Shown: piece by piece, positions 1 through 60,106 of the stretch
How positions within the stretch are numbered: position 1 is the stretch's first letter
How the letters are laid out: the number at the start of each line of letters is the position of its first letter
Source of the DNA: Apostichopus japonicus
Lineage: Eukaryota > Echinodermata > Holothuroidea > Aspidochirotida > Stichopodidae
Direction: 5' to 3'
Length of the DNA: 64,000 bases
Assembly (NCBI RefSeq): GCF_037975245.1
Contig: NC_092569.1
Span: 6,566,501 to 6,630,500, forward strand
Program-made: the position numbers and the translations under genes
The notes under the pieces: model-generated
Databases searched by the model: none
Told to the model about the DNA's origin: nothing
The model's input: the letters and a program-made list of their open reading frames with translations, nothing else

Positions 1-884
1 TTTACAAATTACTTCCTGTCCAAACTTGACCTCATAATTTTGATTTCCATTTAATGGAAATATTTGTTGTAACCGATAACGCTGTCTCTGTAACGCTGAC
101 AGTATTCAAAAGCATGGTTTAGAACGCACTTTTCATAACAACTAGTTATAAATCAATTAGCTGATCAAACAATGCTGGTTTCCTCTGATTACCTCAAGTA
201 TCAAATGCACTCGTAGATGAGTATAACACAATTAATTACTGCTAATAACAACACTGATTACAACAGGCGCGTAGCCAGAAATTTGCCAAGGGAGGGGCGA
301 AACTAGAGATTCGGCATTGCAAACTATCTAAGCGTAGCGCCACAATGGTTGGCGTGGAGCGTACAAGAAAATTTTGGCTGTAAATGCCTCCCAGATCGCC
401 GGAAATGGCACTTCCCATGCGTTGTTAGTTGCATCTTAGCATCTTCTCTTTTGAAAATACTAGCGATTTCATAAAAACCTTAAAAAATTTTGTAAAAAAT
501 ATGCTCAAGGGGGGGGGGGCGGCTGCCCCCTTGGCTACGCGCCTGGATTACAATAGACAGTAGGAAGGATAGGTTTAACAAGATTGAGAAGAAACTCATC
601 AATAATAAACCATGACCTGGAAGAAACTGTTTCACATACTTTCATCATTTATGAATCGTAATGCCAATGCTTTACAGATTTTTAGAGAATTATTACATCT
701 TAATATTACCCTGACCACCGAAAAAAGTCTGGTTTTATTAACAACAACAGAATGTTACTTCCCTAGTCCTGTAAATTAGAGCTATGAAGTGTTGTGACTT
801 TGTTAATTTGTAAAAGAAACATTTACACAGAAAACAATGAAAGTACTTGTAGGGGGTATACTTTTAATCTCATAGCTCAAATGG
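1..884. other. 3' flank of the glutaredoxin-DEP-DUF547 gene
   Basis: No exon is recognisable here. The stretch lies downstream of the minus-strand stop codon at 885-887. An AATAAA on the minus strand (TTTATT at 734-739 on the plus strand) lies about 150 bp past the stop and is the nearest candidate polyadenylation signal. A small transposon occupies 264-545. Nothing else is seen. Confidence 0.5.
264..545. mobile_element. hAT-like MITE, 282 bp
   Basis: The two ends form a perfect 14-bp terminal inverted repeat (CAGGCGCGTAGCCA and its complement). They are flanked by an exact 8-bp direct repeat GATTACAA at 256-263 and 546-553, the duplication length typical of hAT transposases. There is no ORF, so the copy is non-autonomous. 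Its interior (about 328-415) carries, in reverse orientation, a conserved core also present at 19890-19995, 26033-26130 and 26942-27050, including the segment TGGCGCTCCGCTTAGATA and its variants. A poly-G run lies near 510-520. Confidence 0.85.
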
Positions 885-12800: not shown

Positions 12801-15800
12801 GACACTAGTGTACAGTCAATACATACAGCTATGGTCAATACCCACAACACAGCGTGGACATCTTAGGTCTGGATAAAAAATAACAAGGTATCACGTTTTA
12901 TTACTGTCTGCATTTTGTAGCGACAAGAAGAAAACTTTTTCAGAGCGTGGCATGCGGTTCGGGGCGAGTCTTCAATGCCTTTAAGTGATTGTGCATTCAA
13001 TACAGTGCAGTATCAGTTCTTTTCCATCTAGCCATGATACCCCTTTAACAAGTCATGATTCATTATTACATGTAATCAGTTTTCACAGGACAGTTCTGAA
13101 GGCTCTAAATTTTGTCTCGAAATAAAGTACTGTACTCCTGGTTCCTGTGTAAAACAAAACTGCTATGTACATCTTTGCACTTTGTATAGCAATTTGAACA
13201 TTTTGCATAGCAGTTTGCGATGAGGTACCAGGATCCCTGACAACTGAGTGTGCTAAAGTCTGGAGAAAATGAGAGTTGTTGATCTGTTGTGCTCAGGGGC
13301 TATCTTGGGTGACTTTTCTTAACTACTAAACTCTGCCAAACACCAGAGTGGAGTTTACCTGGTTGATGTAGCATCAAGCTTTCCTATCAGCAGTCTCTTA
13401 TACTATACTATCAAAACAAAACATCAAAACATATATACTGTATGTGTGTGTTGCACTATGTATGAATCTGTATACTACTATTATTATTGTATTTGAGTGT
13501 CATTTTGATTGTAAGAGATCACCTGGTACCCTACCAGAAATCAGATCTACCCAAAATGAGTCCATCGCAATCGTGAAATTTCAATTTATATAACTTTCTT
13601 TACTGGCATACCTTGTATCGTTGCCATAGGGTCCTTGGTGCACCCACTCGGACATTTCCATGTATTACGAGGGCGTTATAGATGTTGATGAAGAAGGCTA
13701 GTTTCTCCTCCTCAGAGGAATCTTCAACAGCTACTCTAGTCAGCTCAGCAGTTGCTTTGACATATTTTTCAAACTTGGGACTTGAAGCAATACCCTTATA
13801 GTCTACACCCTGCAGAAAGAGTTCAGTATGTACAGACAAAAAAGGCAATAAAATAAATGCATACTTGATACAGATACATACTTGTTTTACATAACTTAAC
13901 TACACTTTTGGAGTCGGCAGTTACATGGCTGGTCTTACCAATGGGCCAGATGTGTCCAGGCCCAGGGTTTCCAGAGAAGGGGGGGGGGGCATTACATTGG
14001 AAGGCAATGAGTGAAGTGAAGAAAGTGACAAAGTTTCATCAAATATCTCTCCATAAATAATTAATTTCCCAATTACAGTGCATAGCAAATTATAAATCAA
14101 TCGGAAGCTATGCATGCATCTATTATATCATGCAGTCCGGCCCCTTCACATGCACTGCATACATAAATTAACAGTGAACCTTGAGTAACATGTCAACGAA
14201 AGGTCTGCCTTGGTTGCCTCGCAGGCCATTGGGGTCCCCAACATTTACGTCTGGCCCAGTGTTCCAGCCCTATAGGGTACTCATCCCGTATTGAAGGATA
14301 TAAGTAAAATGGCTTAGTAGGATGCTTCAGTGGTTTGAGTGTGTGGGGCTTGCAATTCAATGTCATTATCTGAAAGTGGGTTGTGTTAGGCTGTACAAAT
14401 GTGTGAGTTTATGTCAGTGAATAAAACATAGTATGTATCTGAACATTCAATAACTGGAACTCCTTAAGTTTGAACACTCATTCTTGAAAGTAGAATACAC
14501 AGCTGTCAGGAGTGAGGCTTTTATTGCCAATGAGAGCATGAGGATACCTTTATGTATAACAGTACTGATATACTGTATGTCAGCTTGTAATAATGGCTGT
14601 ACCTTACTGTATTACTGATGCAGGGATGTGCTCACACTGGGCGACACCAGGCGGCTGCGCCCAGCAGTTCTGAATGCGGCCCAGCACAAACAATATTTTA
14701 AACATTTCCGCCCGGCACTTTTTTTATGATAATTTCACAAATGCTACCATAACCAAAATCTGGGAGAATACATGGCACAGAATAGGAAAACTAGCACCAC
14801 CTAAGCATACTTCATGTGCAAAATTTGTCCAGTGGGGAGGGGACACCCCACCCATGAGATCCCTCTCCCAGGGTGTGGATCACACTACCGCACAATCTGC
14901 CCGGCACTCAAATATTCCTGAGCACATCCCTGCTGATGTTACACTAAATCACAAGAATTTGAAAATCCACTGGTACTAATTATGAAAAATTAATTATGAA
15001 GAATTACTACAGCATTTAAGCTTAACACACAAAAGCAGCACATATATCTCTGAGTGAATCTATGGCCATACGCACGGTATATATATTTAATGATTGGTTG
15101 CATACCTTTCCATCCTTTGATAGGAAGTCATTATATATGGACAGAATCAGCTTTCTCAGGCTCTCACTCAATTCCGAAGCTACCCAAGAAGAACACGAAG
15201 AGAAACGGAAGGAAAAAAAAGCAAGCATGATGGAACTCATACTCCATAAAACTTAATAACAAAATTAGACGTGAACATTGCAAATCTTTGAACAAGTCAT
15301 GTACATATATGAAGTCACTATCCTGTTTCCAGGAGATGCCAGCTTTAAAAAGAAGAGTTTACTTTGCCAATGCCCTGAAGCTGTAACAGAGTTCATGCAA
15401 GGAAAAACAAACATGGATTTTGGTGTTGAATATAAAATTCCTTAATTTAACAGGAATGTAACTCAATTATTCTATTCTGCATAAACATTTATTTTCACCT
15501 ACATCTAAATGGTCCCCTCACCCCCTCCCCCACCCCCCCCCCCACATCTTGTCCATCTCTTGGGTGCCGATTTCTTCATACTTAACGTTAAGACCAAAGT
15601 AAGAAGATGATGATACATTTAAATACTAGTATGCTTATGAACAGATAGTATCCAATCGATGCATACTTTACATATCCAAGTCTTATCATTAGATAGCTAG
15701 GCAAAGCTAATATTTGACACAATAGTGAGAACTTCCTTGCCAAGTGTGCCAACATTCATTCAATATCCTCTGTATACTGTAAATATATCTGGAAATTATA

Positions 15801-18800
15801 GGATGCTGCAAGCATGAGGGGAATATTATGAACTGTGAACAGAACTAATCCTGAAAGACACATTGCTTAATTACTGAATACTCCACGCTGCCTTAATATA
15901 TAAACTCATTATCAAAAGTAAATAAGAACTTACCAGGCCTGGACTCACAATCAGAAACCAAACCAGAGTTGAGGGCTGAAGTTTCTTCATGCTCATACAG
16001 TCTACACAAGTTACTACTATCTGTGAATTCTCCGACCGGTTTTCCTTTCACAATGTGGAAGAACCCTTTATCGAACAGATGCTTACCAATTTCAAGCGCT
16101 TTGTCTCGATCAGCTAGGATATGAAGAGAGTGGAAGGTCAAATAAAAATCTTTTTTTTCTTTACTAGTTGTAAAGATTATATGTGACTTTACTTGTACAT
16201 GTGTCAGATGATGTTGACATTTGACCCTCCAAAGCAAAACAACTGCATCTGGGACCTTGTCAAGTTAGAAACAGATGAATAATTAACATCTCACATCATC
16301 ATCATCAATTGATGCAGGTCAGGAATCAGTGAGTCTTTGTTATAGTAATCTCAGGTACATAAAACATAACAACGACAGTTGTGTTGATCGTGCTGACTGT
16401 TGCTCTATAGCACGCTGAGCACTGTTTGACCTAACGTGCTGCATGGTGTCAGGTATTCAGTGCTTAACATAGCTGTCTGAGTAAGTGCAATTTTGCTTCT
16501 TAGACTTGGTCATTGTTTTCATCAAGAATAAACCCAACTTCTCACCAAACTATTACAGCAGTGTGTATGTAAGTTACAACAAGATGACAGCTATAATTCC
16601 TCTCATATATATATACAGGATGTACAGTACACCTTCTAAAGGGGGGTGGGGGTGGGGAGGGGGGAGGGAGACAACGATTAATTTCATATTGATAAACTAC
16701 ATCAGTTGCATCCTCACCTATACTTTTGTGTTTCATTATCCAATCCACCAAATCTGTCCCGGCAAAAGTATTCTTGTTGGAGAAGACAAGCAGGTAGGAA
16801 TGGTCTTTGATGACACCACTGGCTTTCAGATCATCAATTAAAAGAGCATCCTCATCCTTCTCACAGGAGAAGTCAATCTCTCCTAAACGTAAAACGCAAT
16901 CAAATGAGTCAATCAGTCGTCAAAGTGCATTTTGGTTACATACTACATTAAGTGGCCTGATATATGATCATCTAAATCAGGGGTGGGCAACCTTTTTGAA
17001 TGAATGGGCCAGAGTTTAGGGGTGAAAGATTGACGAGGGCCGCACCTAACCAACGACTTGCTGTTGATTTCACACCTTTGATTCCGAGGACTTTCAAGCA
17101 ATAGGTGTGTGTACTATTCTGTATTCACAAAAACATAATGTCAATACAGTACTACAGTTGATAATTAATGGTGATAACAGGCCTACCTGACAGCATCATT
17201 AGTGCAGATAAATTCTAAGCAGCTAGCTCTGTGTTTGTGAAGATGATGGGCCACAGAAAAATCACTGGCAGGCGGCATGTGGCCCGCGGGCCGTAGGCTG
17301 CCCACCCCTGATCTAAATTCTCTATGTAGACTGTACCATGTCAGAGATACATACAGAGATACACACTTGCTATATCCTCTTTCGTGCCTCGGTCCAGACT
17401 GCTGCAACATCCAATAGTGAGCGTGTAGAAGGCCTTACTTGTTTAATGTAATATTGTGCTTTACAATTAACACTTGAGCAATAGTACCAATTTTCCTCTG
17501 TCACAATTAATAAAAAAAAAAAGGAAGACTTAATTAGAACTATGTACATGTAGGCAAAAAGTGAAAACACTGCTCTTCCAAGGAAGATATTTTGTGATCA
17601 AGAATTGGGTTGTGAAATATTGGTGAGAGAGATGTGATTCATTTTGAACAGCAATTCTTACCATCCTGATCCTTGAGCAACAAGCTTTCATTTGGAATCT
17701 GAGGCGCATCAGACGTTGGCTCATTATTTCTGACTTCTTCAAGAAGCTGTTCAAACTTTGATTTGTCTTCTGTAATCTGCATAAACCAGAGACGACATGA
17801 TTATTACTTCACAGAACATGACAGGATCAGAGGTTGTCCAGATATAACAGAAATAATCAGGCTATAGTTAAGTTACCTACAGTAGATACTTCTTGATACA
17901 TCTTGAGGTATACTAGTAACTCACAAGTTTTGTTACTTGCTCATCTTGTATGGCAAGTGCTTTTCAGTAAATTTCCTTTCAAGTTATATTCATTTCATAT
18001 TAGGTTAGTATGCCCTATGGTTGAATAAATCTTTTAAGAAACTTGTATTTTTAGTTTGAAATACTGAAGTTTGTATTAATTGGGATATTAATTGGGTGCA
18101 AAATTCTTATTTTATCACAACATAAGAATAAAATTAGAAATCCAATGCATTCCTAAACTTTTCAAAAGTGGGGGATCCCTTCCCCTTGGAGTTAGACCCC
18201 TCCCCAGGACAGACATTAGCCAACATTTGTGCCCAGAAGAATTCATGGTCTGATTACGGGCCTGTATTCGCTAGGCCTAACATTAGGCCTACAGTAGGCT
18301 TTCAATTTTTTTGGGTGTCTTCTTTTCCCTTTCTAAAGGGTGTGAAGACTCGCACACAAAGAAACGTCTCATGCCGGTAATCTGACCTAGTTTCGAATTA
18401 GGTGTAACAGAAGTGTTAGACACCACCATCGATCCCAGAAAAAAAAACACACAGCTTGCTACCGTCTGTAATTAGACACTAGTGTACAGTCAGTACATAT
18501 ACAGCTGTGGTCAATACCCACAGCACAGTGTATAAACGATACAGCTATAGACATCTCACTCAGGTATCATGTTTCATTACTGTCTGCATTTTGTAGCGAC
18601 ACAAACAAAATGTCACTTGCAAGCAACAGAAAGTTAACTTTTCAGATGACCGCACGCGGTTTGGGGCGAGTCTTCAATGCCTTTAAGTTCTAGCCTCGTA
18701 CTCTGACAGTCTTGACACACAGTCTAAGTCCTTAGATTAAGAGTTCTGTAGGCTACAAGTACAAGTACAACTGGTACTGTGGTAGCCTAACTTGAGTTAG

Positions 18801-19233
18801 GATATTTTCATTTGTTACCAGTTCAGTTGGTATATACCCAGGGCCTACAGTAGGCCTACTGCAGTCAACGCAGTAGTGTTAGGTGGTCGATGACAAACTG
18901 AATTGGGCCTTGGTGAAGAGAAGGGTTGCAATAAACTGCATTTTTATTTCGTTAATTGCACTGTACGCCCATGTCTTACTACACTAGTCTTAGTCTTACC
19001 AACTTCTGAAATTCATCATTGCCACCAATAAGTGTAGCATTGAAGAATATCTGTGGAACAGTTCTGCTACCGGTTTTCTCTCTCACTTCTTCCCGAACCG
19101 TGTCGGCGTACGAGTCCAGGCTAATTTCATGATATGGCAATTTCAACTCCTCAAGAGTTGACTTTGCTTTTTTGCAGTGTGGACAACCCACAATGGAATA
19201 TACAATGATCCTGCCCTTGATTTCAGAACTCAT
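885..19233 (-). CDS. Glutaredoxin-DEP-DUF547 domain protein (9 exons, 488 aa)
   Basis: Coding exons, 5' to 3' on the minus strand: 19233-19000, 17776-17662, 16882-16718, 16113-15934, 15179-15106, 13809-13612, 12278-12051, 1637-1494, 1013-885. All introns are GT-AG, phases agree throughout, and the sum is 489 codons including TAG. Residues 1-78 are a glutaredoxin: CPHC dithiol motif at 17-20, TVP with the cis-proline at 58-60, and GGNDEF near 70-75. Residues about 117-205 are a DEP domain (FAGTDLVDWIM, then ALEIGKHLFDKGFFHIV). Residues about 232-486 are DUF547, with FFINIYNALVIH, YIIGGHRYSLQDIENGILR, IHFALVCGAKSCPPI and a C-terminal IFKWYQEDFGG...YDWSVN. Glutaredoxins reduce disulfides with glutathione; DEP domains often bind membranes or GPCR/Rap partners; DUF547 has no settled function. 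No signal peptide is seen, so the product is probably cytosolic (inference). The 10.4-kb intron 7 holds a satellite array and transposons. Domain calls are firm; the role of the fusion is unknown. Confidence 0.93.
2128..3970. repeat. 113-bp tandem array, about 17 copies, higher-order
   Basis: TAGGACCCAGAGC recurs every 113 bp (2128, 2241, 2354, 2467 and so on to 3933). Unit variants alternate in a fixed order from about 2570. A unit with CTGTATCTATGG is followed by one with ACCACCATATAG, then one with CTATATCCATTGC, giving a roughly 339-bp trimer repeated several times with some scrambling. The array is wholly intronic and has no ORF. It resembles a short satellite block. Confidence 0.95.
6185..6553. 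mobile_element. hAT-like MITE, 369 bp
   Basis: The left end CAAGGGCGTAGGA pairs with the right end, whose complement is CAGTGGCGTAGGA. The element is flanked by an exact 8-bp repeat AAGAGAGG at 6177-6184 and 6554-6561. The interior is G/C-homopolymer rich and non-coding; the overlapping ORFs on both strands are by-products of these tracts. It belongs to the group with CAnnGGCG ends but lacks the conserved core seen in the others. Confidence 0.85.
10810..11083. mobile_element. Foldback MITE with internal TTAGGG-like repeats, copy A
   Basis: It begins GTGGCTATTCTTATGACTAG and ends with the near-complement CTAGTTGTAAGAATAGCCAC. An internal stretch at about 10940-10975 contains GTTTAGGGTTAGGGTTA, matching the metazoan telomere unit TTAGGG. 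A second copy lies at 56607-56872 in the opposite orientation. There is no ORF and no clear target duplication. Confidence 0.75.
12661..12984. mobile_element. Short TIR element, TTAA-type family, copy 1
   Basis: It starts AAAGGGTGTGAAGACTCGC and ends GCGAGTCTTCAATGCCTTTAA, which are imperfect inverted repeats of each other. The same roughly 325-370-bp sequence recurs at 18335-18686 and 33526-33894, with shared interior blocks such as GGTAATTAGACACTAGTGTA and TACTGTCTGCATTTTGTAGC. It is non-coding and lies in the intron between exons 6 and 7 of the minus-strand gene. Confidence 0.75.
14621..14932. mobile_element. CAGGG-ended MITE with 6-bp TSD, copy 1 (312 bp)
   Basis: The ends CAGGGATGTGCTCA and TGAGCACATCCCTG are inverted repeats, flanked by CTGATG on both sides (14615-14620 and 14933-14938). 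Other copies are at 35635-36086 and 37912-38224. There is no ORF of its own; the 101-codon plus-strand frame through it is shared with the 37912 copy only because the copies are similar. It sits in intron 5 of the minus-strand gene. Confidence 0.8.
16978..17310. mobile_element. hAT-Charlie-like MITE, copy 1 (333 bp)
   Basis: The termini CAGGGGTGGGCAACC and GCTGCCCACCCCTG match the widespread hAT/Charlie end type. An exact 8-bp target duplication ATCTAAAT lies at 16970-16977 and 17311-17318. It is non-coding and lies in intron 2 of the glutaredoxin-DEP-DUF547 gene. A relative is at 43362-43730 with its interior in the opposite orientation. Confidence 0.88.
18335..18686. mobile_element. Short TIR element, TTAA-type family, copy 2
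   Basis: Same family as 12661-12984. The left end is AAAGGGTGTGAAGACTCGC and the right end is GCGAGTCTTCAATGCCTTTAA. It lies in intron 1 of the minus-strand gene and is non-coding. Confidence 0.75.
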
Positions 19234-19639
19234 GATTTTAACATGAACGAGTTAGTTCGAATAATACGAACTTAGATTAACTACAGTACAGGCTGGCTAT
19301 AGGACTCTGAATTCAACAATTGGAAAGTTGAAGTGCGACACCAATTTGCTACATGTTGTATTCAGGGAGTGCGTGCACTACTCACATCTCATGGTTAACC
19401 AGGCCGGTCCACCCGTTTCACATAGTATCATTCAATAATATTGTATCATAATAATGTAGCATTCACAATAACATTGTTAAATATAGGCATTAGTATAACA
19501 TGGTGCAATCTTATATTTTGATTACAATTATATCGTCAATTTTTTTTTTATTATTACAGTAAAATGGTATGGTATACTAGCATGTGAATCGGTCCAAAGG
19601 ATTCCCTCTCTTGTGCATGCACACGTGCCACCATTGACA

Positions 19640-20030
19640 GTGCAGTGGCGGAGCGTCCATACAGACAGGGGGCGGATGCCCCCCCCCCCACCCCCTCCGG
19701 CCTGACGGACTCAAATGGACTGCTGGCGCCCTTTTCAGCTTTTTACCACTTTTTACTTATTCGCGATTATTGACATTTTTTACTGCGCTCTCATCTACCT
19801 ATTGACATTTGTCACATTTTTTTTGGTGTAATTTTCTGACAAAATGCTCTAACGGCTATTTATTCTTCGTTTATCTGCAAATTAGCAAGGCCCTGAAAGG
19901 GTAATTTCCGGCAATCTAGGGAGTATCTTTACTCAAAAGAAAAAATCTGTACGCTCCGCGCCAACCTGTGGTGGCGCTCCGCTTAGATAGTGTCAAAAGC
20001 GCCCCTGCAGACCATTCTTGCCCCCTCTGA
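19640..20030. mobile_element. Truncated CAnnGGCG-ended MITE carrying the shared core
   Basis: The left end is CAGTGGCGGAGCGTCC, followed by G- and C-homopolymers. The core at 19890-19995 (ATTTCCGGCAATCT, then ACGCTCCGCGCCAACC and TGGTGGCGCTCCGC) matches the elements at 264-545, 25518-27106 and 25894-26544. No right terminus or target duplication was found; the sequence runs into the TGACCTTTG repeat near 20030, so the copy seems cut. Confidence 0.6.
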
Positions 20031-20510
20031 CCAATACCCCTATCTCGAAAAAGACGACCAGGTTCTCAGCGGTGTATCGATCACCCTCCCACACATCCCT
20101 ATCAATCAACAAGAAGGAAAAACTCGTTATTCAATATTCAACCAAGATTCACTTTTTGAGTTCTAGTGTTTATGGTTTACAGACTTTAGTGATCAACGTT
20201 GGCTCCAAATGACATGTGACCCGCATCCATTTCGATATAGGGTTCTTATAATTGCACTTAGTACCAAGATGTATCGATGTACCCTCTCAAGTAAACCCTT
20301 CATCCAAGCTTTACTTGTGAGTTATTATATTTTAGAGGTTTTCGGACTTTGACCTTTGTTGTCATCAAATGACCTTTGATTTCCAACAAATTACAAAAAA
20401 AAAAAGTTTTGTACTAACCAAGCGGGATCTAAATAACATGTACGAGTAAGTTCATCCAACCTTCACTTTTTGAGTTATCGTGTTTGAAAGATTTTCGCCC
20501 CCCCCCCCTT
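20030..20510. repeat. Degenerate TGACCTTTG-type repeat
   Basis: It consists of loosely repeated units of roughly 100 bp containing TGACCTTTG, CATCCAAGC or CATCCAACC, and TTCACTTTTTGAGTTA. A similar block is at 58975-59330. The pattern resembles a dispersed repeat common in marine invertebrates (recollection, not checked). The ORF at 20018-20212 is not considered real. Confidence 0.5.
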
Positions 20511-21205
20511 TCCTTTTTTTAAAATTTCATTTCATTTTCATTCATTTAGCCTAATCATTTCCAGCAAGTAGCATCTTTTGACCTGCAGAATCTGATGTTT
20601 TTGTGGTTTGGATGTTGAAGATCATTCTTGGAATTACATGTTGTGCAAAAGTTGGGTCAATTGAGGCACTTGAATTTTAGACAGCGTACGAAATAGTTTA
20701 CATCTGAGTAAAAAGGTTCATTAACAAGTGACGAAAACTTCAGGCTCTCATAGCCAAAAATTCTGCATGGTCATGATATCGAAATTGATGATGCTATGAA
20801 TGGCCAATTTGTCAGCTATAAACAGTGATGGGTAGCGTGAGAACTTGTGAGAACTTCGATCTGGATTTAGAGACCACATTACTTTTACGATTTAGTGTAT
20901 AAGTCAATGGGCTTTTAAATAAGCGTATACTACCATCAGCAACACTTCACGAGTTGCACAATATTTATAACGATGACGTAATTTATCTTCTTGACTACAG
21001 AACGTGCATATGATTTACCATATAAGGTTAGGCAGTTTGGTGCAAATACCGTATAAGGATTTTCCCAGGTGAATGTAATACGACTTCAACTATAAATATC
21101 CTGGACCAATTGAGACCAGATGCACAGCCACACTGCCACTTGCGTTAAGTTACATACATTTTAAAGTACGTGAAAGACGACCAATTGTTCATAAATACAA
21201 TTATT

Positions 21206-24200
21206 ATGCCTTTCTGCGGTCAAGATCCAAGGGGGCCAGGCCCAGGGAGTATTTGGATACGAACAAGCTCCGGGTGGCGTAAGGTAACGGAGGTCGGTGG
21301 TCAGCTCAATCGCCAGATTAAGAAGTTTGCAAGGGATCGGTAAGAGTATTCTATAATCCGTAGTAGTACAAGTACCCTTAACTTTAATGAATAGAGAATT
21401 GGTTACATTAGTCATAAGCTACATTTATTTAGCCTAGTACTATACTTATAGGCTATATGTACTTAGTATACGGCTATAGCCTTGCAGGCTAAGATAGGCT
21501 TAGGCTAGCTTGGTTCAAGGCGGTCGGCCCTAACGTTCATGTTATAGTCACTAGGCCTAAAACTAACTTGGACTGAGCTGCTTAGTACAGTAGTTGTAGT
21601 TGTTAAGTGTAGGCCTAGCACTAATATCGAAATGTGTCTGGCTGCGATGTGATTCTAACACATAGTTGACATCACCTGTGGTTATACTAAATGCCTAGGC
21701 TAGGGGCCCATTATCCCCAACTTCTGTTGACCAGCCTTTCGATATATGTGAGTTTTCATCCAGTTCAAAGTTGGACCTAGATATGCAGGAAAAATAATTA
21801 AAGCTGGTGCACTAATTGACATAGTCTGACCATCAGTTAGCCCATGCATGGTGAGTTTTTGTCCACGTCTGGGTACAGTATCACAATAATCAGTGGGTCT
21901 ATAGGCCTAGTATATAAATATAGATGGCTATGTAACATTGTGGCCTGATGGCTAAGAAGTGTCTTAGGTAATCTAACAGACTTCTAGAATTCCACTAAAT
22001 TCTACTTCTTATTGTACAGTTCCATCCATATTGCACAAATGTCAGACTTCTTCGTCTGACAGTCAGATGTGTTGGTAAAGTCCACTTTTCTTGGACTGTT
22101 ATTCTTGTTTTCTTTTATGTACCTACTTTGTTTAACCAGTTGTTTAACTCGTATATATATAAGTGTACAGTAAGCAAGTCCTCTAACCTATAAGGAGATA
22201 TTTTGTTTACGTGCTACTGTACGATTGCGAAATATCATATTGATATTTCGTCATGTTTTTTCCATCTACATGTTCCAATGCTGAAAACCTCCCGATAAGA
22301 AGCAGGGATTAAATGAACACTTTTATTATTTTTGAAGTAAACTACATTTACGTGTTTGACTATTTAATCTCTTCTGGAATTGTTTTGTACTTCTCTCAAC
22401 GCTACAAAGTTCAGTCAACTAGTCGTTTTGTGGCTACGAATCACGTCTCTGCGTTCATCTCTGCCAATAAGATGTACAGTATAAAGGAAATGTGTCATGT
22501 TATCCACAAGGCTGCAGTACATATAAGAAGTACATCAGTGCCCTCACAGTCATGTGGCTGCCATGTTATTTTCTCAGCCATGTTATGCACCTGTTATCTT
22601 ATTCACCCGGCAACTTGGACAAAGATGGATTCCTAGGTTTTCACAGTTAATTCAGTTAAATATGTTTTGTTTCTCTATTTATAATGTTTGCTCACTTATT
22701 CACAGTTGGAAATGTTATTTCTACAACACAGATGCAATTTGACAGAACTTTTCAGGGTAAATTCCAAGTGTATCAAGTTTGAGGGATAATTGAACAAGAA
22801 AAATGAGAAAAGTGAAGCTTTTGAGGAAGATTTGTCGACGTGACATTGTGGACCACCTTCTGTGATTTACTTCAGGGTATTATGCTAAGCCAGCTAAAAT
22901 AGGTTTTTATCCAATCAACCATATCTTGAGTTTAATAGCCCAGACAAGATCTTGTGAAAGGCTTTGCACCTAATTTAAGTGTGTAATATTACAAGTGCTT
23001 TTCCACTATTTAGATAAACTTCTATATGTATAGTCAAATCAATGAATTAATAAATGAGATAAAACTATAAAGTAGCATCAAACAATTTCTAACAATCACT
23101 ACCATTCTTATTTTTTTTATTGCAGGATTGCCAGCAATGCCAAGTTTGGTACCAACTATAATGCAGAGGCCAACAGAGATGTTAGCCTCCTCCCTTCAAG
23201 TATCCCAGATCATTCATGTAAGTACAGTACATCTATGAAACCTTTCTCAATATTCATTATGTTGTTGATCCTTTGCTCTTCTAGCACCATCATGTAGCTG
23301 CTTCAGATTAGTGTTAATAAGTATACCCAGCCACTGATGGTTGCTCACATGTATGTGTAATGTATTGATATGGTAATCGTGGTGTTCACTCGCACCCTTG
23401 TTTAAGTATGGAATCTTATTAGATGATAATTTATATGTGTACACCTTGTATTGACCTGAATGTGACCTCTTGAGTCTGGTAAGCAAAGCAGAAAGTGATC
23501 CTTCTCAATCGGTCAAGTCGAACCCGAAACATAACAGTATACATACTCTATCAAGCCATCACTGTTATAAAAAATCTCTTTCAAATGGCAGCCTTTAGTA
23601 AATCATGGTACTGTATTAAGTGTCTCTCTGCATGGAGGGTAAACTATACCTTGATACAGTAAAGATGATGCTATGTTTCCTTGTTCTTCATTTCAGATGA
23701 AGGGGACACTACCAGAAACTATCTGTTTATCCCATGTGCATGGAGATCATCGAGGCAGGTAAAGTAGTTCAAGGTGTACAATGATTTTTACTTTTAATTA
23801 AATTTTAAAATTTAAATATTAATTAAAATTTAAATAATAAAACATCAATTTTATAGATTAGCCACACTTAACTCAGTGGCTGGATCACCCAACCAAGCCT
23901 ACAAGCCTCCCTTGCACATTGCAGTAAGGGAGCATGGAGACCCTTAGGCTGTAAGATGGAGCAAACTATCAGCCTACAAGCCTCCCTTGCACATTGCAAT
24001 AAGGGGTCATGGAGAATTCATATAACAGTTTAGAAAGGAGGTTGAGATGTAGTCGGGGAAGGTGCAAGGGGTAAGGGGAGTGAATGATCAGTGGATGATC
24101 AACACTGAACTTATTTTCTGAAATTCAAAGAGCTGTCCATAGTTTATAGTGTAAGTGCCATATAGCACAAAGCTTCCGTAAGCCACTATATAGACATATA

Positions 24201-27200
24201 ATACAGTATGCTCACACCACTTTCAAAACTATCTTGGTGATTTATTTCAGAGTGGATTATTTGTGACTGCTTGTGATATAATTAGAAGCTTTGACCTCTG
24301 CACCGCAGTGAAGGATCCAAGAAGGTTCCACTTTGTCTGTGAGGTAATATTTTGCTTCGGTAACAGTCATAAACATAAGCAATCATGATGGGCTGTAGGC
24401 CCTATGTGACACCATGCATAGAAAAATAGTATCTTAATAAGGTAAAATTGGAGGGACCTCATCCTTAGTGTAACGATGCTCTTTATTACAACAACGCAGC
24501 AACAATGATAGCAGCATTATCTTCTATATTCCAACAGTAGACGTTCTCAATAGGCAGCCTTTGAAAGATTTCAGTCTGGTCAACAAAAAGTTAACTGGCC
24601 CATAATCTTGCAATAAGCAGGTATGGAGACCCTAAGGCCATAAGCTGGATCACCCAACCAGCCTACAAGCCTCCCTTGCACAGCACAGTAAGGTAGCATG
24701 GAGACCCATTGGCCGATAGCTTGAGCAAACTATCAGCCTACAAGCCTCCCATGAACAGCTCAGTAAGGGAGCATGGAGACCCATAGGCCGATAGCTTGAG
24801 CAAACTATCAGCCTACAAGCCTCCCATGAACAGCTCAGTAAGGGAGCATGGAGACCCATAGGCCGATAGCTTGAGCAAACTATCAGCCTACAAGCCTCCC
24901 ATGAACAGCTCAGTAAGGGAGCATGGAGACCCATAGGCCGATAGCTTGAGCAAGCTATCAGCCTACAAGCCTCCCTTGCACATAGCAACAAGGGGGCATG
25001 GAGACCCTTAGGCCTAACTTGAACAGCTTAAAAGCCTCCTGTAGAACTGTATCTTTTTTTCAAGGGAGACTCCATTAGTGTTTACACGGGTCCAAAAATC
25101 GGGAACTTGGTACCCGAGAGCCGTTACCCGTCGGGTATCCAGGTACCCAGAAAAAAATTGTTTACCCTCGAGTATCACGATTTTCAAGAAATGACAAATT
25201 GGATGCTATTAAAAATGAATCATATTCTCTACTGACAATGTTTTCATATTCAAAAATGTAGGTGTAAGATAAGGTATAAAACCTTCCTCAATAATTTCTA
25301 TTTGCTATTGTTTCTTTCATTAACTTGTTAATAACTTCATATAATTAACATTACTACTAACATCGCACTGCCGTCGCTGCTTATGCTTGCTCTCCACGTC
25401 TATTGATCACACCATATAAATATCCAATTTTAGGCTCGTAAACAGTTGTTACTACTACTATCTAATATGCAGGCCCAGGGTTCGCATTAGCCGCGAGATT
25501 TCGCGATTCGCGCAATTCATAGGCGTACGAGGCGGGGGGCAGGGGGGGCAGACTGCCCCCCCAAATTTCCAGAGGACAAGAAATTCGGGCAAAAGTCCTG
25601 AAAAATTCGGGCAGCCTAAGAGGAGAAAAAAAATATATATATATATATTTTTTTTCTGCTCTTAGGCTGCCCGAATTTCTTGTCCTCTGGAAATATATAT
25701 ATATATATATAAATATGCAGTAGCTTGCCCGAATCTTTTTTCAAATTTTTGCCCGACAATTCCATGATTTTCTTTATTTAGCATCATGATGCCCGAATAT
25801 TTCCGTGTAACACCACCATAAGCGCAGTTCATCTGGGCTACCACGCTTTTTGAAATCAATTTTTTTTCTAACTAGTCAATTGTATACCTGGACCAAGGGC
25901 GGCGGAACCGGGGGGGGCACAGGGGGCACGTACCCCCCACTTTTCCTCAGGTTAAAAATGTGCCTTTTTTTCTACATAAAAATTGAGGTGACTCAAGTTA
26001 GCAAGAGGCCAGGGAACCAGAATGAACACTCGGGAAGGGCCGTTTCCGGCCATCTGAGGGCTTTGTAAAACCAAAAATTTTCTAGTACGCTCCGCGCCAA
26101 CCAATGGTGGCGCTCCGCTCAGATAATCGTGCATACAACTTTGCAAATCCTGGCTAAGCCCGTGACTTTTCATGAATTTCTGTGGGTCAAACTCAAAGCT
26201 ATTTCGAATGGAAAAGATTTGTTTAGATATTAACAAGAAAAAAACTCTAATTCGAAAGATTCCTACATTAGCAACTAGCATGATTTCACCTCATTTTGTC
26301 TCAAAAGAAAACTTGTTCTTCGTTTCCCAATTTGCGCATTGGATATTGCAGTGCTAGTATGCATATTTTCCTTTGGGGGGGGGGGGGGCGTTGATGGAGT
26401 GATGTGTTTACACGAATAAGATAATACAATAAGAGTTATAAGGGGTACTAAATATAAGGCTGCATCAGTCCAATCGAATATCTGCAAAGTGCCCTTTGAT
26501 GTCGGTGCCCCCCCCCAAGATTAAAAGTGCTTCCGCCGCCCTTGACCTGGACATCCCCAACATGAGTGTATATAAGAAACGTCATGTTCATGGACGGTGG
26601 GGGGGGGGGTGCCTACAAGCCTAGAAGTACAGGTTTATCATATTCTTTGTTATATTTTATACTTGTTTGTGAGACAAATTGCAGTCTCACCCGACACAGC
26701 GACATTATCCCGCCTACGTGTCGTTGAACAATGTATGTTTTTTCTGGAGGTAGCTGAGTACTGTGTTAAAATAATAAATAAGGTAACTAAATAGGAGCTT
26801 AAAAAGTATACTGTCCCATTTTTCCCCTTCAAAGTGATGGTACCATTTTTTCTTCTTCTAACTTACCAAATTTTTGGGGAAGTGTAAATTTCTAAAACGT
26901 GAGATTATAAAATAAAGAATGTTTAGATGCAACTTGCAAGGCCTCAGAAGTGCCGTTTCCGGCAATCTGAGAGGCATTGTGTGCCAAAAATTTTCTTGTA
27001 CGCTACGCGCCAACCGATGGTGGCGCTCCGCTTAGATAGTGTCACGGGAACTTTCGGGCACAAAAAGTTCTGCCCCCCCAAACTGAAATGGTCCCGTACG
27101 CCTATGGCGCAATTTCATCGCATTTGTAATAAACGATCAGTAAACAGCCACTTGCTATTATTATTTTTTAGTTATCCTGTCTATAATCCGTACACATCTC

Positions 27201-30200
27201 GTAAAATTCCTTGTCAGCCTTTCCTTCCATGAAACAAACGAACGAATGAATAAATAATAACTTCTTCCACATGGTAGCCTAACACCACAGTAAGTCAATG
27301 AGAAATCTAGCTAGGCCTAACCATGTTTATTCACTGAAATTGTGACGCAGTTATAAGATATCCATGGATATTTTCATAATTGTTGTTACGTTCGACCACA
27401 TGGTTGCCTAACACCACACTAAGTCAATGAGGGAAATCTAGCCTATACTGCTGAAATTGTGACGCAGTTATAAGATATTTATGGAATAATTTCGTTATTG
27501 CTGTTATCTTCGACACATGGTAGCCTAACACCACACTAAGTCAATGGGAAATCTGCCTAACCATCGGTTTGCCAAAAAAATTCACACTTTGCATAGGATT
27601 CGGGTAATAATTTAGGAATCGGGTAGTATGGCGTCGGGCGGGTACCTTCGTTATTGCTGTTATCTTCGACCACATGGTAGCCTAACAACACACTAAGTCA
27701 ATGGGAAATCTGCCTAACCGTCGATTTGCCATTTTTTTTTATATTTTAAATCACACTACGTAGGATTCGGGTAATAAGTTAGGAACCGGGTAGTATCGCG
27801 TCGGGCGGGTACCCGGATACCCGGATAACCCGTGCAAACACTAGACTCCATGAGTCCCATGTTTTATAGCTTTCATGAGTGTTTCCAGTTGTTCCATGAG
27901 GTGTATAGCTGTCACTATTTGCATTGCACACATGAATTGCTAATTTTACCACTTTAAGTTACATTTTGTACCTAATAGTATTTTGCTCACCCTCATTGTT
28001 GTATCTTTGCTTTCCTTTCCTGTGTTAGCTGTTAGAAATTGTTGCCAGGGATTATATTGGTACTTTGAGTGGATCAGCTATGAAGCATCTCTTCTCTATC
28101 TTGGAGGAAGCTGTGGACCAAGGTAAGTGGAAACAGCCAGTCACTACGGTAACAGCTGCACTGATTGGTCAAATATTGTACACTTGATAGCTACAAAGTC
28201 TTCATAAGTGTAGTCTGTCTTTTTGCTTGTCAGGAGTGGTAAAGTGCTTTGTACCTGTTCATATTAATTAAAATAACTATTTAAACATGTTGGTAATAAT
28301 GTGTAAGTAATCTATCACATCAACTACTATATTGCTTGTAGAGTCATTGTCATATGATTCCATTGTTATCATCCCTTTATTGTCCCGTTACTGAACGTAA
28401 AAAAATAACGGAATATCGTTCTACCGATTGTGGAAATTGAATAAAAAACTGCATCAAATATTCCTTTCATTTGCTTTTGTTTTGATTTAGTTGTGGGTAC
28501 CCAGTTACATTTCAGACGTGTCATACGACTACTGACCGACATCCGAACCAAGATGATGTTGAATAAAGGAAGGCTCATTGGCAGCCAAGTGACATATAAC
28601 TGTCGTCTGCACCTCCTTGACCTGTGGTTGGGGCAAATAGAACAAATGGAACTTTACCAGGTAACCATAACATTATCCTCCTTAAGTTGTCGTGACAACA
28701 GAGTATGATATATTTTGTCCAAAATTCGTGCATTGATACCCCATTAAAAATAATCCAGTGATAATTTATATTTTGATCTGCTCAAGACCCACCAAAAGTG
28801 TTTGTTATCCACTTTTGGGTCCTGCACCATAGTTTGCAGAATGTCCTTTGTAAAGCACCTACTCTTTGTCCTTTGTAATGTCCTTTGCAAAGCAACTACG
28901 TAGCCTTTGTAATGTCCTTTGTAATGTCCCTACGTCCTTTGTAATGTCGTTTGTAAAGCAACTACTCTGCCTACAGTACTGGCTACGTGTATAGACAGGA
29001 CATAGCTAGTACATGAATTACTGTACTTCAACTTCTTAAGCATATATGGAATCATACACCAAAACAAAACTGCCCAGAACCTCAGATATATAATAATATT
29101 CAACAAACTTTATTCATGAAATATTTTTTAGTGGTAAATGTAAATGGTAAATGTAACCGACACTTTTCAAAGGAGACTACTTTGTAATATTCTCAACATT
29201 AGATGGACCAATAACAATTGGTTATCAAACGATGAGCTCTACAATGAAACCAACCAAACATCTTGGTCATCCATAGTCGCACATAGAAGATTGAGATTTT
29301 TCGGTCATGTAGCAAGACTCCATGAGGACGCTCCAGCAAAGGTTGCTTTAAGAGAAGCATTTAGAGATACTGCTAAACCAGTAGGACGGCCTGTGACTAC
29401 CTTGCTTGGAAAAATAAAGTCGCAATTTAAGGAGGTTAACATTAACAATTTCGAGGAAGCAATAAACCTTGCACAAGATCGTGATACGATCACTGAGCAT
29501 GTCGGATAGACGAGACTCAACTTACTACTACTACTACTACTAGATGTAAATGAAGTTATCATATTTTCCTTTTGCAGAGAGAAGAAGATGGTTTGCTAAC
29601 ATTGCTTGATCTGCCTCTGGCTTGTCTGCACAGGATCTTTAGATGTTTCTCCCAACCGAGGGATATCATTCATTTATCACAAACCTGCCAGCACCTACAT
29701 ACGATTGGAAACGACACCTTTCTCTGGGAAAGTTTGTTTTGGTATCATTTTACAGATGCACAGGTAATTCAATCATCTCAGTATCCCAAATATTATTGAC
29801 TCAGTTTATAGAACGGTGTTAGTCCCATCCGGGGAGGCAGTCATTCTGTAACACTAAGCTAGCTGCCTTTTAAATTCATATATGTAGAAATCCCATGGGC
29901 TTGTAGCTTGTACTACACATTTGATGTGTTTGAATTTACAGGGTTATAGCTCATTGGATTTGCTTTATCAGATGGAAGACCATTTCAGGTGGACTGCTTC
30001 TGGATGCAAATACCAATTTACTTTAGCCAATCAGTGCTCAAACCTACCACCTCACAATGTTAGGTTTCATTCCTTGTTATGCCACTGCTTTAATTCTCCC
30101 CACTCATAGAACTGGTAACTCCACTGCAAGATATCATCAATTCTGCTATCAAAAGTAAATTAGAGGCTGTATAAATAGTTATTAAGAAACATAATAATAT

Positions 30201-33525: not shown

Positions 33526-33894
33526 TTAAAGGGTGGGAAGACTCGCGCACAAAGTAACGTCTCATGCTGGTAATCTGACCTAGTTTCGACTGAGGTGAAA
33601 AGTATTAGACACCCCCCTTGAGCCCAGAAAATACACACACAGCTTGCTACCGTTGGTAATTAGACACTAGTGTACAGTCAATACATACAGCTATGGTCAA
33701 TACCTCTAACACAGTGTACATAGCAGCGATGGACATCTCAGGTCCAGATATCCAGATGAAAGATAACAAGGTATCACGTTTCATTACTGTCTGCATTTTG
33801 TAGCGACAAAAAGAAAACTTCACTTGCAAGCAACGGAAAGTTAACTTTTTCACAGGGCAGAACGCTGTTTGGGGCGAGTCTTCAATGCCTTTAA
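33526..33894. mobile_element. Short TIR element, TTAA-type family, copy 3
   Basis: The copy is bounded by TTAA on both sides: TTAAAGGGTGGGAAGACTCG at the left and CGAGTCTTCAATGCCTTTAA at the right. This fits a TTAA target (inference; the left sides of copies 1 and 2 read GTAAA and CTAAA). The interior matches 12661-12984 and 18335-18686. It is non-coding. Confidence 0.75.
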
Positions 33895-34199
33895 GTTTGC
33901 ACAGAATAAATTTTGAATCTTGTAGACCATTAATAAAAACGACTGCTATCAGTTCAGGTTGTATTTTGATACCACTCTGAATTTTTAAGAATATTACCCT
34001 TTTAATCATGTGAATATCATTAATTATAAGTACTAACTAGACTATTCAATCTAATATATAGTCGATGAGATCACTTTCTCAAATGCAACACCAAACTGAG
34101 TAGAATGACAGAAGACTGCTATGGTTTGACCAAGTTTTCACTTTTTGTTAGACCATGACATATGAGGAAAAGAACCATGCCAACAATCATCCTTTGAGA

Positions 34200-37569: not shown

Positions 37570-40500
37570 TTATGTTGTCTGCTTCTTCTTCTTCCTTCTC
37601 TTCTCCACCAGTTCTTGTAATTGCCTGTTTCTGTTCCTGTTCTTGACGTTTACTTTTAGATAATAGTGCTGACCAACTTTCTTTGGTTTGGCTTCTCTCT
37701 CTTTCTTCCTCCTCTGAAAATATCAAAATGGGCAATCAACAGAAATATTGTATTTAACAAAAACAAAAACATTACTTCAAACAGCATATACATGATGTGG
37801 AGTTTGAAAGTATTTTAAGGCTCCTTTAACATCAATGCTTTTGTTTTGTGTATGTCATGTAATATTCATACATTATTTGTATATCCTTGAACTCATCAAG
37901 AGATCTATACTCAGGGTTGTGCTCACACTGGGCGGCACCGGGCGGCTGCGCCCATCAGTTCTGAATGCCGCCCAGCACGCACAGTATTTTAAACATTTCC
38001 GCCCAGCACTTTTTTGATGATAATTTAACAAATTTTACCATAACCAAAATCTGGGAGAAAACATGGCACAGAATAGGAAAACTAGCACCACCAAAGCACA
38101 CTTCATGTGCAAAATTTTTCCAGTGGGGAGGGGGATACCCCACCCATGAGATCCCTCTCCCAGAGTGTGGATCACACTACCGCACAATCTGCCCGGCACT
38201 CAAATATTCCTGAGCACATCCCTGTATACTATTACTATTATATGTCTCTCTCCAAAATCAGTCAACTGCAAACATTTTCAATTTGATTCAATGAGTGTTG
38301 TGTCTGAGAATAGCAATGCCTTTCACATAAAGTCCTTCCCAAACCTCTGCATTTGTTTTTTCATATTTTCAACATTCCTGGTATGATTTTTGATGGATTG
38401 CATTTTGGAACATTGTTTTTCTTTTGAGTGTCTACAACCAAACTGTGAAAAGACAGCTTTCAGAAGTGATACCCCAAGCCAGTAAAGTGTTTATTAACAA
38501 GAAACATGTCATGAAATGTCTATCAATTCTTGTTTTGGTTTTAGTTACATCAAAAACAGTCAAACCCCCAAACTTTCATTAATTCCCATCAGTATTAATT
38601 AAAAGATTGTTTACAGTGAGTGTAGTTTTGCTTAAAGATGCTAGGCAATTGAATTGCAACAATGCTTGCAAAATTACTCAAAAGAAAGGCTTGATTGATA
38701 TGCAAGTTCTACAAGGTAATGGAATTTGTTCTGATAGTTCAAACGGAGTACAGAAACAGTTTTAAAGCAAATACAAAATGAGAGCACTGATATTTCCAAA
38801 GGCTGTATAAGTTCTACCTTACATAAGATAGTGTATTGATTGGCTATGTTTCTCTTACCTGCTTAGATGTAAGTTCTACCTAACATAAGATAGTGGATTA
38901 TGTTTCTCTTACCTGCTTAGATGTAAGTTTCTTCCCTGAACCTTCTCCCTCTGGTTCGTTCTCCTCAAAATACCTCTTTTTCTTTGACATTGGTGGAGTG
39001 TCCTCATCTTCTGCATCATTTGACATTGGAACGAATGATTCAAGTCCTGTACAGAGGAGAGACAGTTTCACGGAACATAATCAAAATTTAAAACAAATGA
39101 TAACTCTAATAATATTTGTCAAGCCTATTTTGGAGACACTGATGAACAAGAAAAACCTCAAACGTTACCTATCCATTCTGTTGTTACATGACATACAAAC
39201 AGAGAAGTCTGGGACTAAAATCCAGTCTTTGAATAATCTCTATGATACAAAATGATCAGTTTTCAGTGATTACAGCCATCTTGTTTATAGCTGGGATATA
39301 ACCAAATTAAAATTTCACCACTTTTTCAAAAAACTTGAAGCTGCTATCAAACACTTATGGCATTCCAACAAAGAGTGTTGATAAAACACTACGGCAAATC
39401 ATCACAATGATGCAATATTCAATATTCATGTTTACTCACAGGAATATGACCATCACATGACACTTAATGAGCCACGGTGGTACAAGGTCAAAACAAAATA
39501 TTTTCATGGGTGGATTTTCACCAACACTTGCAATGAAACTGAATTCTCCACAAGAATGTATCAAACAGTTCCAACATTGCTCCTGTTTGCCAAACTCTAG
39601 GTGTTTATTGTCTTGTTTCTTAAATTTATATGCCCTTCACCAAACTGTTATAAGTACGTTGAAAACCTATTCCATCCACCCCAACAGAACAAGGAAATGG
39701 TGTGCTATCAATTTAAGTTCCTTAGTCACATAGTTACAGCAAACTAGCTATACACAAGTGTCGGTTGCTTGGTGGTCCGATAACCAAGCTTTCAATTTTG
39801 ATTTCTCGATCCGACCAATAGCAGTGAATATTTTTAAAGTGATGGTTTACTTCTGACAGAACTGAACAACTGGCAAGTATTGAAATGGAATTTTAAGGTC
39901 CGTCACTGGTTCCACAAATTGTAAAGACTAAGGCTTTTTTTTCTGGTCTCTGGTACCATGCATCCTCTGTCAATGTCTGGTGACAATCTCTTAGAACTCT
40001 TTGATCTACAAAGCACTAATTTTGCACATTAACGATTGTTGCCTTTCTCATGTTCGTCAGTTCGATATCCTAACTTCAGAGAAGACTGACCAACGACGTT
40101 TAACGGTGCTACTGTACCTTTCTTTTTCTTCTTTTTCTCGGTCAGGTTCTCCGGCTGCTGTTTGGGGCTGGTTGTTTTCTCCGTCTCCTTCTTCTTGAGG
40201 CGTTTCACTGTCTTTAAAGTCTTCTGGTTCTTCATGTTCAAGAAAGCTCTGGCTCCGAACGACACATTCATCCCCGGGGCGTACTGCCGCTTCTTCGGTT
40301 CTGTCTGATCTTTGGAGGCAACTTCTCCATCTTCATCCACAGGGCTGTTGCTTCTCTCTGATTATTATGTAGAATAGGGAGAAGCAAAAACAGATTTGCT
40401 ACGTATCACAGAATAAAACATCAAACTCAAAACAGGAGTAAACGACCGGGCAGTAATTCCCGTAGAAAGGACTGTCTACGTATTTTGAAACCTTTCACCA

Positions 40501-43500
40501 CATTTTTTCAAGAAAAATGTCATCTTTTCATCCGAATAAAGTTACTTGAAAATCATACCATCAGACTTATATGAAAAAACCTAGTATGATACACACAAAA
40601 CTATCACCCTCAGCTGCCTGTCCCCAGATGAGCAAAAGAAGCAATGTAACAAGAATTAAGACCTTTGAGTGTAACAGCCTCTCTTCATCAGATATTTTGC
40701 TCATCATGTGAGACACACACATCCCTGGATTCTCCCCCTGGTCCATGACCATGACATTAATATTAAATAAACAAGTATACATCAGGATTACATTATTTAC
40801 GGAATAATATGGTTTCACCTTGTAAATTCAATGGGTACCCTTAAGACTTGTCGCTTGAAGCTTTTCCGTAACATGAAGTGAGTACCAATTTAGTTTATAT
40901 CTGTATTGTCAATTCATCTCCATTGGATGATGCCAGCAATGACAATAGGTAAGGGAAACGGAAAATATAAGAGTCAAGAAATACTTACAGATTTGAGACA
41001 TTTGTCAGCAGAGAACATTTAATAAAAAAAAATTGACATTTAACCTATCAGCATATATCAATGTGTTTGGCTTTAATTTGAATCTAAATAAATTTTCGTA
41101 AATACCCCTTCAACACCTCTATACAAACATCTCAAAAGCCTTCAAGTCTAGTGTCCCATTACTTCAAGTGTCAAATTAATATGTACAATGTAAATTACCA
41201 ATCAATATGTTTGCAGCCACCAATGTTGTAATATTTACCTGTGTTCGGAGTAGCCTCCTTTGGAAGATCACTTTCCTCTGTTTTAATCTCTTCAGGTTTC
41301 ACTCCCTCAGCTTGCCCTTCCTCTCCAACCTCATCCTTCACCTCCTCCTCCTCCTTATTCAACTCCTCATCTTCTTCAATGACTTCTTCGTCACCAAGAG
41401 ACAGATCTCCTTCATCATCTGTGTTCTCCAAGTCCTCCCCTGTAAACTGGGGATCTACTTTAATGTCGCCCCAGTTCTGCTTCACCCTTCGTATCGTCAT
41501 CGTCTTTATGTTGGTGGATGCGGGGTTCTCTTCTCCTTTGGCGGTGGACGACTGTTCAACAGCAGACTCATTGGATGAGCTAGTGCCAGTGTCCTTAGTC
41601 ACTGCAGCAGAGTCGGTTATTTGGGGTACGATTTCATCTTTTGGAGCTTCCTGATCATGGTTAAAAATGATGGTTAAAGATGAAAACTGTATTATGAAAG
41701 TTGCAGAATCAACCTATCTATCCATGTTACCTCAGTACCACAGGTTATGATGTTGTATGTAGTAGGTGAGACTAGTACAGCATAATTAGACTTGCAACTA
41801 TGAAACAGACAGGTTAGAAGGGGATGATGGAGGAGTGGGTGGAACTTATACCAACTATTGAGCTAAAACGGAAAGAAAGAAAAGGATTTTGCAACCACCA
41901 GTTTCTCATTCTCCCCCCCCCCCCCCAAGTTGAAAAGTCACACCCTATGTCTAATGAATGACTAAAATGTGATTACCACTTTAAAGAATAACAGACACCA
42001 AGAACCAAGAAAGCTCATCTCTATGCCATCTACTCTAATAGGAGTGTTAGCTCAGTGGTTAACGCCGGTGCCTTTCAATAATAAGGTCCTCAATTTTAGT
42101 CACTCCAAGATTAACGTATGTCGTCCAGTTACAGAGTTGTCGACAATTGACAACTCAAAATCATGGACGTTAAATATGGATCTAAGAGACTGACTTCGGT
42201 CAGCTTGCGACTTTGACAAGCCAATGATGGCTTCTTCGCGAGTTCCTGCTCGCAGGAGGATCTAAAATACATACAGTGAATCAATCAAATCATGATGAAC
42301 AAATTCCTCTTCTTTCTAAATTAAAAGATCTATTTCTAAATCAAAAGATACAATAAGGTTTTCTTAGTACTGTAAGTACTCATCATAATATTTAGATTCT
42401 TAATAGGTACAAATGATGATAATATTTACCCACATGCTTTTGATTTGGTTTCTGCATATTTTAAACGTCAAATAACATCAACAATGAAGTACCAACACAA
42501 GTCTCAATGATGACTCACCCTCTCGCAGTTTGGTGGCTTCACAAAGAAAGGAATTTTCCCTCTCTGCCAGTCGTTCAGGACCATTTTAGCAACAGTTGAA
42601 ATGTCTGGTTCTCCTTTCTGCATATTGAAAATAATTAAACCACTTACATGTATTATCGAGCACTGGCAGTTGGTATGCAGTAACTGTTATGAGCACCTTC
42701 CTTTGCAATAAGCCTAACATCTTCAAAACCAGTTGATTACTATCGTATCTTTCTCTTCCACACGATAGATTTGAACTTGTGGCCACGACCTTCAAAATAT
42801 CCTCTGCTGTGTTATTTGGTTAACTTAATCGAATTACTAGCGACAGATCGACCGTGTTTAACGCAGTTCAAGGGTGCTCGGTTTAAGTTGTAACCAGCCA
42901 CATCATATTGATGTTGACTTGAGTCAGGAGGTCACCACTACCAGTAACTCTCTTGACTTGAAGCACTGCAAAATCTCTACGGTGAAAATATCACAAACCT
43001 AACGAAGAATTTTCATTTTGGTGACTGGGTGTATAAGTCATGACTTGTTATTACCATCTGAGGAGTACTGGAGACAGGAGAAATATCATATTTCTGAATT
43101 AAACTACTCAGTGAAGTACTGTATCAAACTAAACATGAATTACCTGCTTTAAATTTAAAAAGTAAAACATTTAAACTGCCCTCCCTGGATTGTTTGTACA
43201 ATAGCCTCTACTCAAGATAGGTTCTGCCCCAGCTGCATTTCAATATTTATTGATCACTCACTAGAACATACACACTTCCAAATAAGAGCAAACTACTATT
43301 AAATAGCATACCTTGCTTTCATCTGGTCTATTGAGAAGGGTTTTTTAACATGCCATTAGAGCAGGGGTGGGAAACCTACGGCCCGCGGGCCACATGAGGC
43401 CCGCCAGTGATTTTTTTGCAGCCTGTGAGATGTCTCAAGAAAAAGAAAAAAACTCAATCTATTTTACATCATCACAGAAACGAGCTAGTTGCTTAGAATT

Positions 43501-60084: not shown

Positions 60085-60106
60085 CACTGATCTGTACAGA
60101 TCAGTG
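60085..60106. other. Perfect 22-bp palindrome between 9-bp direct repeats
   Basis: CACTGATCTGTACAGATCAG plus TG equals its own complement. It is bounded by GCTTCAAGC at 60076-60084 and 60106-60114. It falls in the CpG-richer patch at 59980-60200. Confidence 0.85.

Follow-up and report, generated by a model that had tools for sequence, protein, structure and literature searches.

How did three short transposon-like sequences come to lie one inside another at a single locus of Apostichopus japonicus, and can the arrangement tell the order in which they moved? The locus is part of a 64-kb window (the whole stretch of DNA that was analysed, to which all coordinates refer), and a first-pass annotation had described it as three nested hAT-like elements with intact 8-bp target-site duplications (TSDs). 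The components of the stack are the following:

25068-25075 and 27844-27851, no strand assigned: left and right TSD of the outer element, GACTCCAT, exact match
25076-27843 (2768 bp), no strand assigned: outer hAT-like non-autonomous element, ends TAGTGTTTRCACGGGT
25510-25517 and 27107-27114, no strand assigned: left and right TSD of the middle element, GCGCAATT, exact match
25518-27106 (1589 bp), plus strand: middle hAT-like element, ends CATAGGCGTACG
25886-25893 and 26545-26552, no strand assigned: left and right TSD of the inner element, ACCTGGAC, exact match
25894-26544 (651 bp), plus strand: inner hAT-like element, ends CAAGGGCGGCGGAA

Examination of the window sequence bore out the first description: all three pairs of 8-bp duplications are exact, and both the duplications and the inverted ends lie where the first-pass annotation had placed them. 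The termini of the outer element, TAGTGTTTACACGGGT and TAGTGTTTGCACGGGT, pair as inverted repeats at 15 of 16 nucleotides; pairing extends over the first 12 of 12 nucleotides in the middle element and the first 14 of 14 in the inner one. Once the middle insert is removed, the outer element is 1171 bp long, and its right half contains a tandem duplication. Removal of the inner insert leaves a middle element of 930 bp. Subterminal palindromes made of a G-run and a C-run are found in both the middle and the inner element. A blastn search (E up to 0.01) detected no further complete copy of any of the three elements in the 64-kb window.

Short repeats may pair by chance, and an assembly may join sequences wrongly; the case does rest on a single assembly. 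Two scans of the window bear on this explanation. The first demanded an exact 8-bp TSD and 12-nt inverted ends with at most one mismatch, and dropped TSDs with fewer than three different letters. It yielded 6 matches, three of which are the nested elements; 60 Markov resamples averaged 0.07 matches and never exceeded 1. The second scan used 14-nt ends, a weaker letter filter and 200 resamples, and the nested three were recovered again. With at most one mismatch, 6 pairs were found in the window and none in the 200 resamples; with at most two, 8 pairs against a resample mean of 0.09; and with at most three, 11 pairs against a mean of 0.8. The 8 pairs comprise the nested three, 28676-29436 and four further complete hAT-like elements (264-545, 6185-6553, 16978-17310 and 43362-43730). 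The element at 6185-6553 had been missed by the first scan because of its TSD letter filter. Three candidates that were added only at three mismatches (19544-23844, 56629-56850 and 57684-62015) were read as chance pairs. Considering the empty resamples and the presence of similar complete elements elsewhere in the window, an artefact of assembly or chance pairing is extremely improbable as the origin of the stack.

Smaller signals within the stack were also inspected. A search for TSDs of 2 to 10 bp within each layer (10-nt ends, at most one mismatch) returned, apart from the ends of the outer element itself, several short matches, which were attributed without a control to chance or to palindromes and ends already described. 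At 25476, immediately left of the middle insertion, the sequence CAGGGTTCGCATTA resembles another element end, and two other near matches to it lie elsewhere in the window on the same strand. A fourth nested element at 25476 was discarded, as no partner end was found inside the outer element with up to 3 mismatches.

The stack is placed between two groups of coding-type matches. On one side, pieces matching Glutaredoxin, DEP and DUF547 lie at 13603-19251, the DEP piece consisting of two partial matches below cut-off. On the other side, stop-free stretches of the minus strand match the Pfam families NGP1NT (53929-54195) and MMR_HSR1 (45648-45962), and the best solved match of the latter stretch is Nucleolar GTP-binding protein 2 (E 2e-42). 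We read these minus-strand stretches as probable exons matching nucleolar GTP-binding protein 2.

Searches beyond the window added little. Exact-pattern scans gave 0 matches in public genome contigs, which cover bacteria and archaea and are uninformative on animals, and a single match overall in public viral contigs, equally uninformative on animals. The viral match was taken as chance: beyond the 21-mer, nothing in the 221 bases inspected by eye resembles the element. One viral and one genome scan pattern mixed letters of different window copies and matched none of them exactly, so that their misses mean little. A full-text literature look-up of five end strings (12 to 15 letters) gave 3 papers, all of them for a single string and none transposon-related by its title.

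To which kind of transposon do the layers belong? In the excerpted account used here, hAT transposons are described as having 8-bp duplications, inverted ends of 10-25 bp and a length of 2.5-5 kb (PMC3942097). All three nested elements are flanked by 8-bp duplications, and the short inverted ends of the outer, middle and inner element fall in the 10-25 bp class. The layers, at 1171, 930 and 651 bp, are below the 2.5-5 kb of hAT transposons (PMC3942097), which counts against hAT unless the elements are non-autonomous. The ends of all three nested elements carry A at position 2 and G at position 5, as do those of the elements at 6185, 16978 and 43362. These letters are typical of hAT ends; the element at 264-545, with C at position 5, departs from the G rule. 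The earlier description of the architecture as hAT-like is upheld.

Short motifs accumulate toward the ends of two layers. The end stretches of the outer element (120 and 270 bp) hold 13 of the 29 ACCCG/CGGGT motifs of the window and its remainder, middle element excluded, holds none, while 7 of the 8 TGCCCGA motifs of the window are in the middle element (6 in its left part and 1 in its right); both motifs were picked after inspecting the elements, none was defined for the inner one, and the counts therefore describe rather than test. Clustering near the ends is likewise a feature of Hermes, whose subterminal repeat clusters are bound by its BED domains according to the portion of the report considered (PMC10368747).

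Transposase sequences were searched for among the 32 stop-free pieces of at least 42 amino acids that overlap the outer element. In the 20 pieces compared with Pfam no family scored above cut-off (best E 0.18), and none of these pieces yielded a transposase. No autonomous partner was found in the window.

TSD size alone does not decide the superfamily. P and Merlin types are also cut-and-paste superfamilies that make 8-bp duplications, and the layers might conceivably belong to such a group. Two target consensuses are relevant here. That of the Ac group is nTnnnnAn, which fits none of the three nested TSDs and, among the other complete elements, only 16978-17310. That of the Buster group, nnnTAnnn (PMC3517528, in the part of the text drawn upon), fits 264-545, 16978-17310 and 43362-43730, and fits neither the nested three nor 6185-6553. 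With one copy of each element, the mismatch is weak evidence, and it concerns the sub-group. Both unmatched consensuses and the lack of a transposase in the pieces searched would suit another superfamily with 8-bp TSDs; against it, the A and G positions in all three elements, the short ends and the end-motif clusters of the outer and middle elements fit hAT, and we regard a non-hAT origin as very unlikely. The nested elements are likely hAT-like, non-autonomous and MITE-like.

The first-pass annotation had also stated that the three elements are different families. For the outer element this holds: blastn (E up to 0.05) revealed no similarity between it and 7 other elements. For the middle and inner elements the claim fails, as both carry a common 92-bp internal segment and have similar ends. 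The copies of the segment and the related elements of the window are as follows:

26034-26125, plus strand: shared internal segment, inner copy, 87% identical to 26947-27038 (E about 1e-25)
26947-27038, plus strand: shared internal segment, middle copy, 87% identical to 26034-26125
264-545, minus strand: related stand-alone element, ends CAGGCGCGTAGCCA, TSD GATTACAA, segment at 325-416
19643-20060, plus strand: related remnant, left end CAGTGGCGGAGCGTCC, segment at 19897-19989 (the end coordinate 20060 was chosen by us)
6185-6553, plus strand: related stand-alone element, ends CAAGGGCGTAGGAA / CAGTGGCGTAGGAA, TSD AAGAGAGG, without the internal segment

The segment of 264-545 is 83% identical to both the middle and the inner copies, and that of the remnant at 19643 is 76% identical to the inner copy over 97 positions and 94% to the middle copy over 48. 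A right end and a TSD were looked for in this remnant and were not found. A profile of the four copies detected no fifth copy in the window (next match, E 3.9).

Kinship is also apparent at the ends. Those of the middle element, the inner element, 264-545 and the 19643 remnant follow the pattern CA-N-N-(G/C)GCG, and the variants CATAGGCGTACG, CAAGGGCGGCGG, CAGGCGCGTAGC and CAGTGGCGGAGC, together with CAAGGGCGTAGG at 6185, are forms of one theme. By eye, each of the five elements with CA-type ends shows a G-run/C-run palindrome immediately internal to one or both of its ends. Four of these five carry the segment, the exception being 6185-6553, in which 23 bp of the end are 87% identical to the end of the inner element; the segment is absent from the three others (outer, 16978 and 43362). 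The last two belong to one family: their alignment covers 269 positions at 88% identity and another 57 at 89%. The distance from the segment to one end is 68 bp in the middle element and 61 bp in 264-545; in the inner element the segment lies 140 bp from the left end and 419 bp from the right. Beyond the segment, the CA-type elements match only briefly, at or near their ends.

Because they have the segment and the end style in common, we read the middle and inner elements as most probably related sub-families. It follows that the inner insertion may be viewed as one relative landing in another. A function of the segment as structured RNA was considered and set aside: of the 22 pairs in the consensus fold of the four copies, two-sided change is seen in 2 and is absent from most others, and the covariation term (+0.25) lends the fold no support. 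Rfam gave no match in the window at the gathering score.

A tentative speculation, which we consider rather unlikely, is that the CA-N-N-(G/C)GCG elements are a set of short hAT-like families in which the 92-bp segment is conserved and the remaining sequence exchanged. On this view the segment might be something the elements need, such as a site of binding or folding for a shared transposase, or it might travel from family to family as a cassette; the nest would be a case of a family striking its relative.

Returning to the order of events, we consider it very probable that the locus is a stack of three non-autonomous hAT-type cut-and-paste elements, the outer one having entered first. An element with ends TAGTGTTTRCACGGG would have entered the locus, with duplication of GACTCCAT. 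A second element, with ends CATAGGCGTACG, would then have inserted into it, duplicating GCGCAATT, and a third, with ends CAAGGGCGGCGG and related to the second, would have inserted into the second, duplicating ACCTGGAC. As no transposase was found in the pieces of the layers that were searched, we propose that transposases produced elsewhere mobilised each of them in trans; for the middle and inner elements, which are relatives, a single enzyme or closely related ones may have served.

The first-pass annotation had held that the order can be read directly. This is correct for the insertion of the inner element into the middle one and of the middle element into the outer one. The outer TSD, however, marks no more than the most recent jump of the outer element. 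Since the ends of the outer element are intact (15 of 16 nucleotides) and its end motifs are present, the loaded element could still serve as a substrate and could have moved here after being struck. The middle and inner elements would in that case have joined the outer one elsewhere, the whole 2768-bp stack would have jumped to the present site, and the outer TSD would be the youngest scar. Against such a composite jump, no second copy of the stack lies in the window, and one step more is needed; we deem it improbable, and the simple order, with the outer element entering first, is more economical. In all three TSDs the left and right copies are identical, so no age difference can be drawn from them.

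A further claim, that the stack provides a relative clock for the activity of the families in this lineage, could not be sustained: only one locus is involved, and the nesting chronologies used for comparison rest, in the portions considered, on counts of many nestings (PMC3014933, PMC5657132). The logic by which an interrupted element must be older than its insert is the same in TinT (PMC3014933), which relies on counts over many nestings and deals with retroposons, and in TRANScendence (PMC5657132) and interruption analysis (PMC2517846), both of which count many nestings, whereas a single stack is available here. The excerpted account of TRANScendence adds that insertion can go both ways between families whose activity overlaps (PMC5657132).

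Is a stack three layers deep exceptional? When insertions were placed uniformly in the window by simulation, depth 2 was reached in 14% of cases with six insertions and 18% with seven (the complete elements at their observed lengths); depth 3 was reached in 0.18% and 0.27%, respectively, figures to be read bearing in mind that the locus was singled out as striking among an unknown number of windows. Transposon insertions need not be uniform. Because the window was picked for its oddity and the insertions may be non-uniform, we do not count the rarity of depth 3 as a sign of a special process; the stack looks like ordinary transposon layering. In the fly Calliphora vicina, too, nesting is routine: of 322 repeats surveyed over 600 kb, 11 are nested according to the section consulted (PMC3630058); the present stack differs in being three deep and made of hAT-like elements only.

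Among described elements, the Drosophila hAT MITE Mar resembles the nested three in being short and non-coding, with short inverted ends and 8-bp duplications (PMC3517528). Its inverted ends are 11 bp long, CAG(G/A)GGTAGGC (PMC3517528). In the excerpts of the same report, the TSDs of Mar fit nnnTAnnn and a full-length relic is described, whereas the nested three neither fit that consensus nor have a partner that was found (PMC3517528).

Altogether, the stack is an ordinary further case of known layered hAT-like insertion. As a single locus, it illustrates layered insertion cleanly and can serve as a presence/absence marker between individuals. The most interesting residue is the 92-bp segment, conserved in otherwise dissimilar elements, even if four copies in 64 kb are few. 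The more useful lead is the set of related short elements with a common core segment: one could test whether mobility depends on the core, and families and nestings counted genome-wide could yield a real order of activity.

A short hAT-like family is present in two copies that lie in opposite orientations and have the ends CAGGGGTGGGCA:

16978-17310, first copy of the short hAT-like family
43362-43730, second copy, in the orientation opposite to the first

The two copies share 88% identity across 269 positions, and their 8-bp target-site duplications are ATCTAAAT and CATTAGAG. A further element is possible at 28676-29436, where a duplication (TAACATTA) accompanies 14-nt ends with two mismatches. 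An open frame of 121 aa (29144-29506) overlaps this candidate and extends beyond its right end; no Pfam match was found for the frame.

Within the middle hAT-like element (25518-27106), a near-perfect palindrome was detected at 25565-25694 (38-nt arms, 97% complementarity, no spacer). It is overlapped by a perfect inverted pair of 27 nt, and (TA)n runs are found at its centre and edge. A guess as to its cause is that the palindrome may be an inverted duplication produced by template switching. Immediately left of the middle element's insertion, CAGGGTTCGCATTAGCCGCGAGATTTCGCGATTCGCG (25476-25512) resembles a hAT-type end, and a search within the outer element detected no partner for it. A tandem repeat at 24623-25014 (75-bp unit, 5.2 copies) stops 53 bp short of the duplication of the outer element.

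Other dispersed repeats fall into three sets, with identities of roughly 80-94% when compared within the window:

12661-12986, 18334-18689 and 33527-33897, repeat found in three places
14621-14932 and 37912-38224, repeat found in two places
10806-11087 and 56603-56876, repeat found in two places

Long minisatellite arrays are also observed:

2100-3970, 113-bp unit, 16.6 copies
44572-45680, 53-bp unit, 21.1 copies
48939-51762, 54-bp unit, 52.2 copies

Two stretches matching nucleolar GTP-binding protein 2 have the 54-bp array between them, and one of these two is found next to the 53-bp array.
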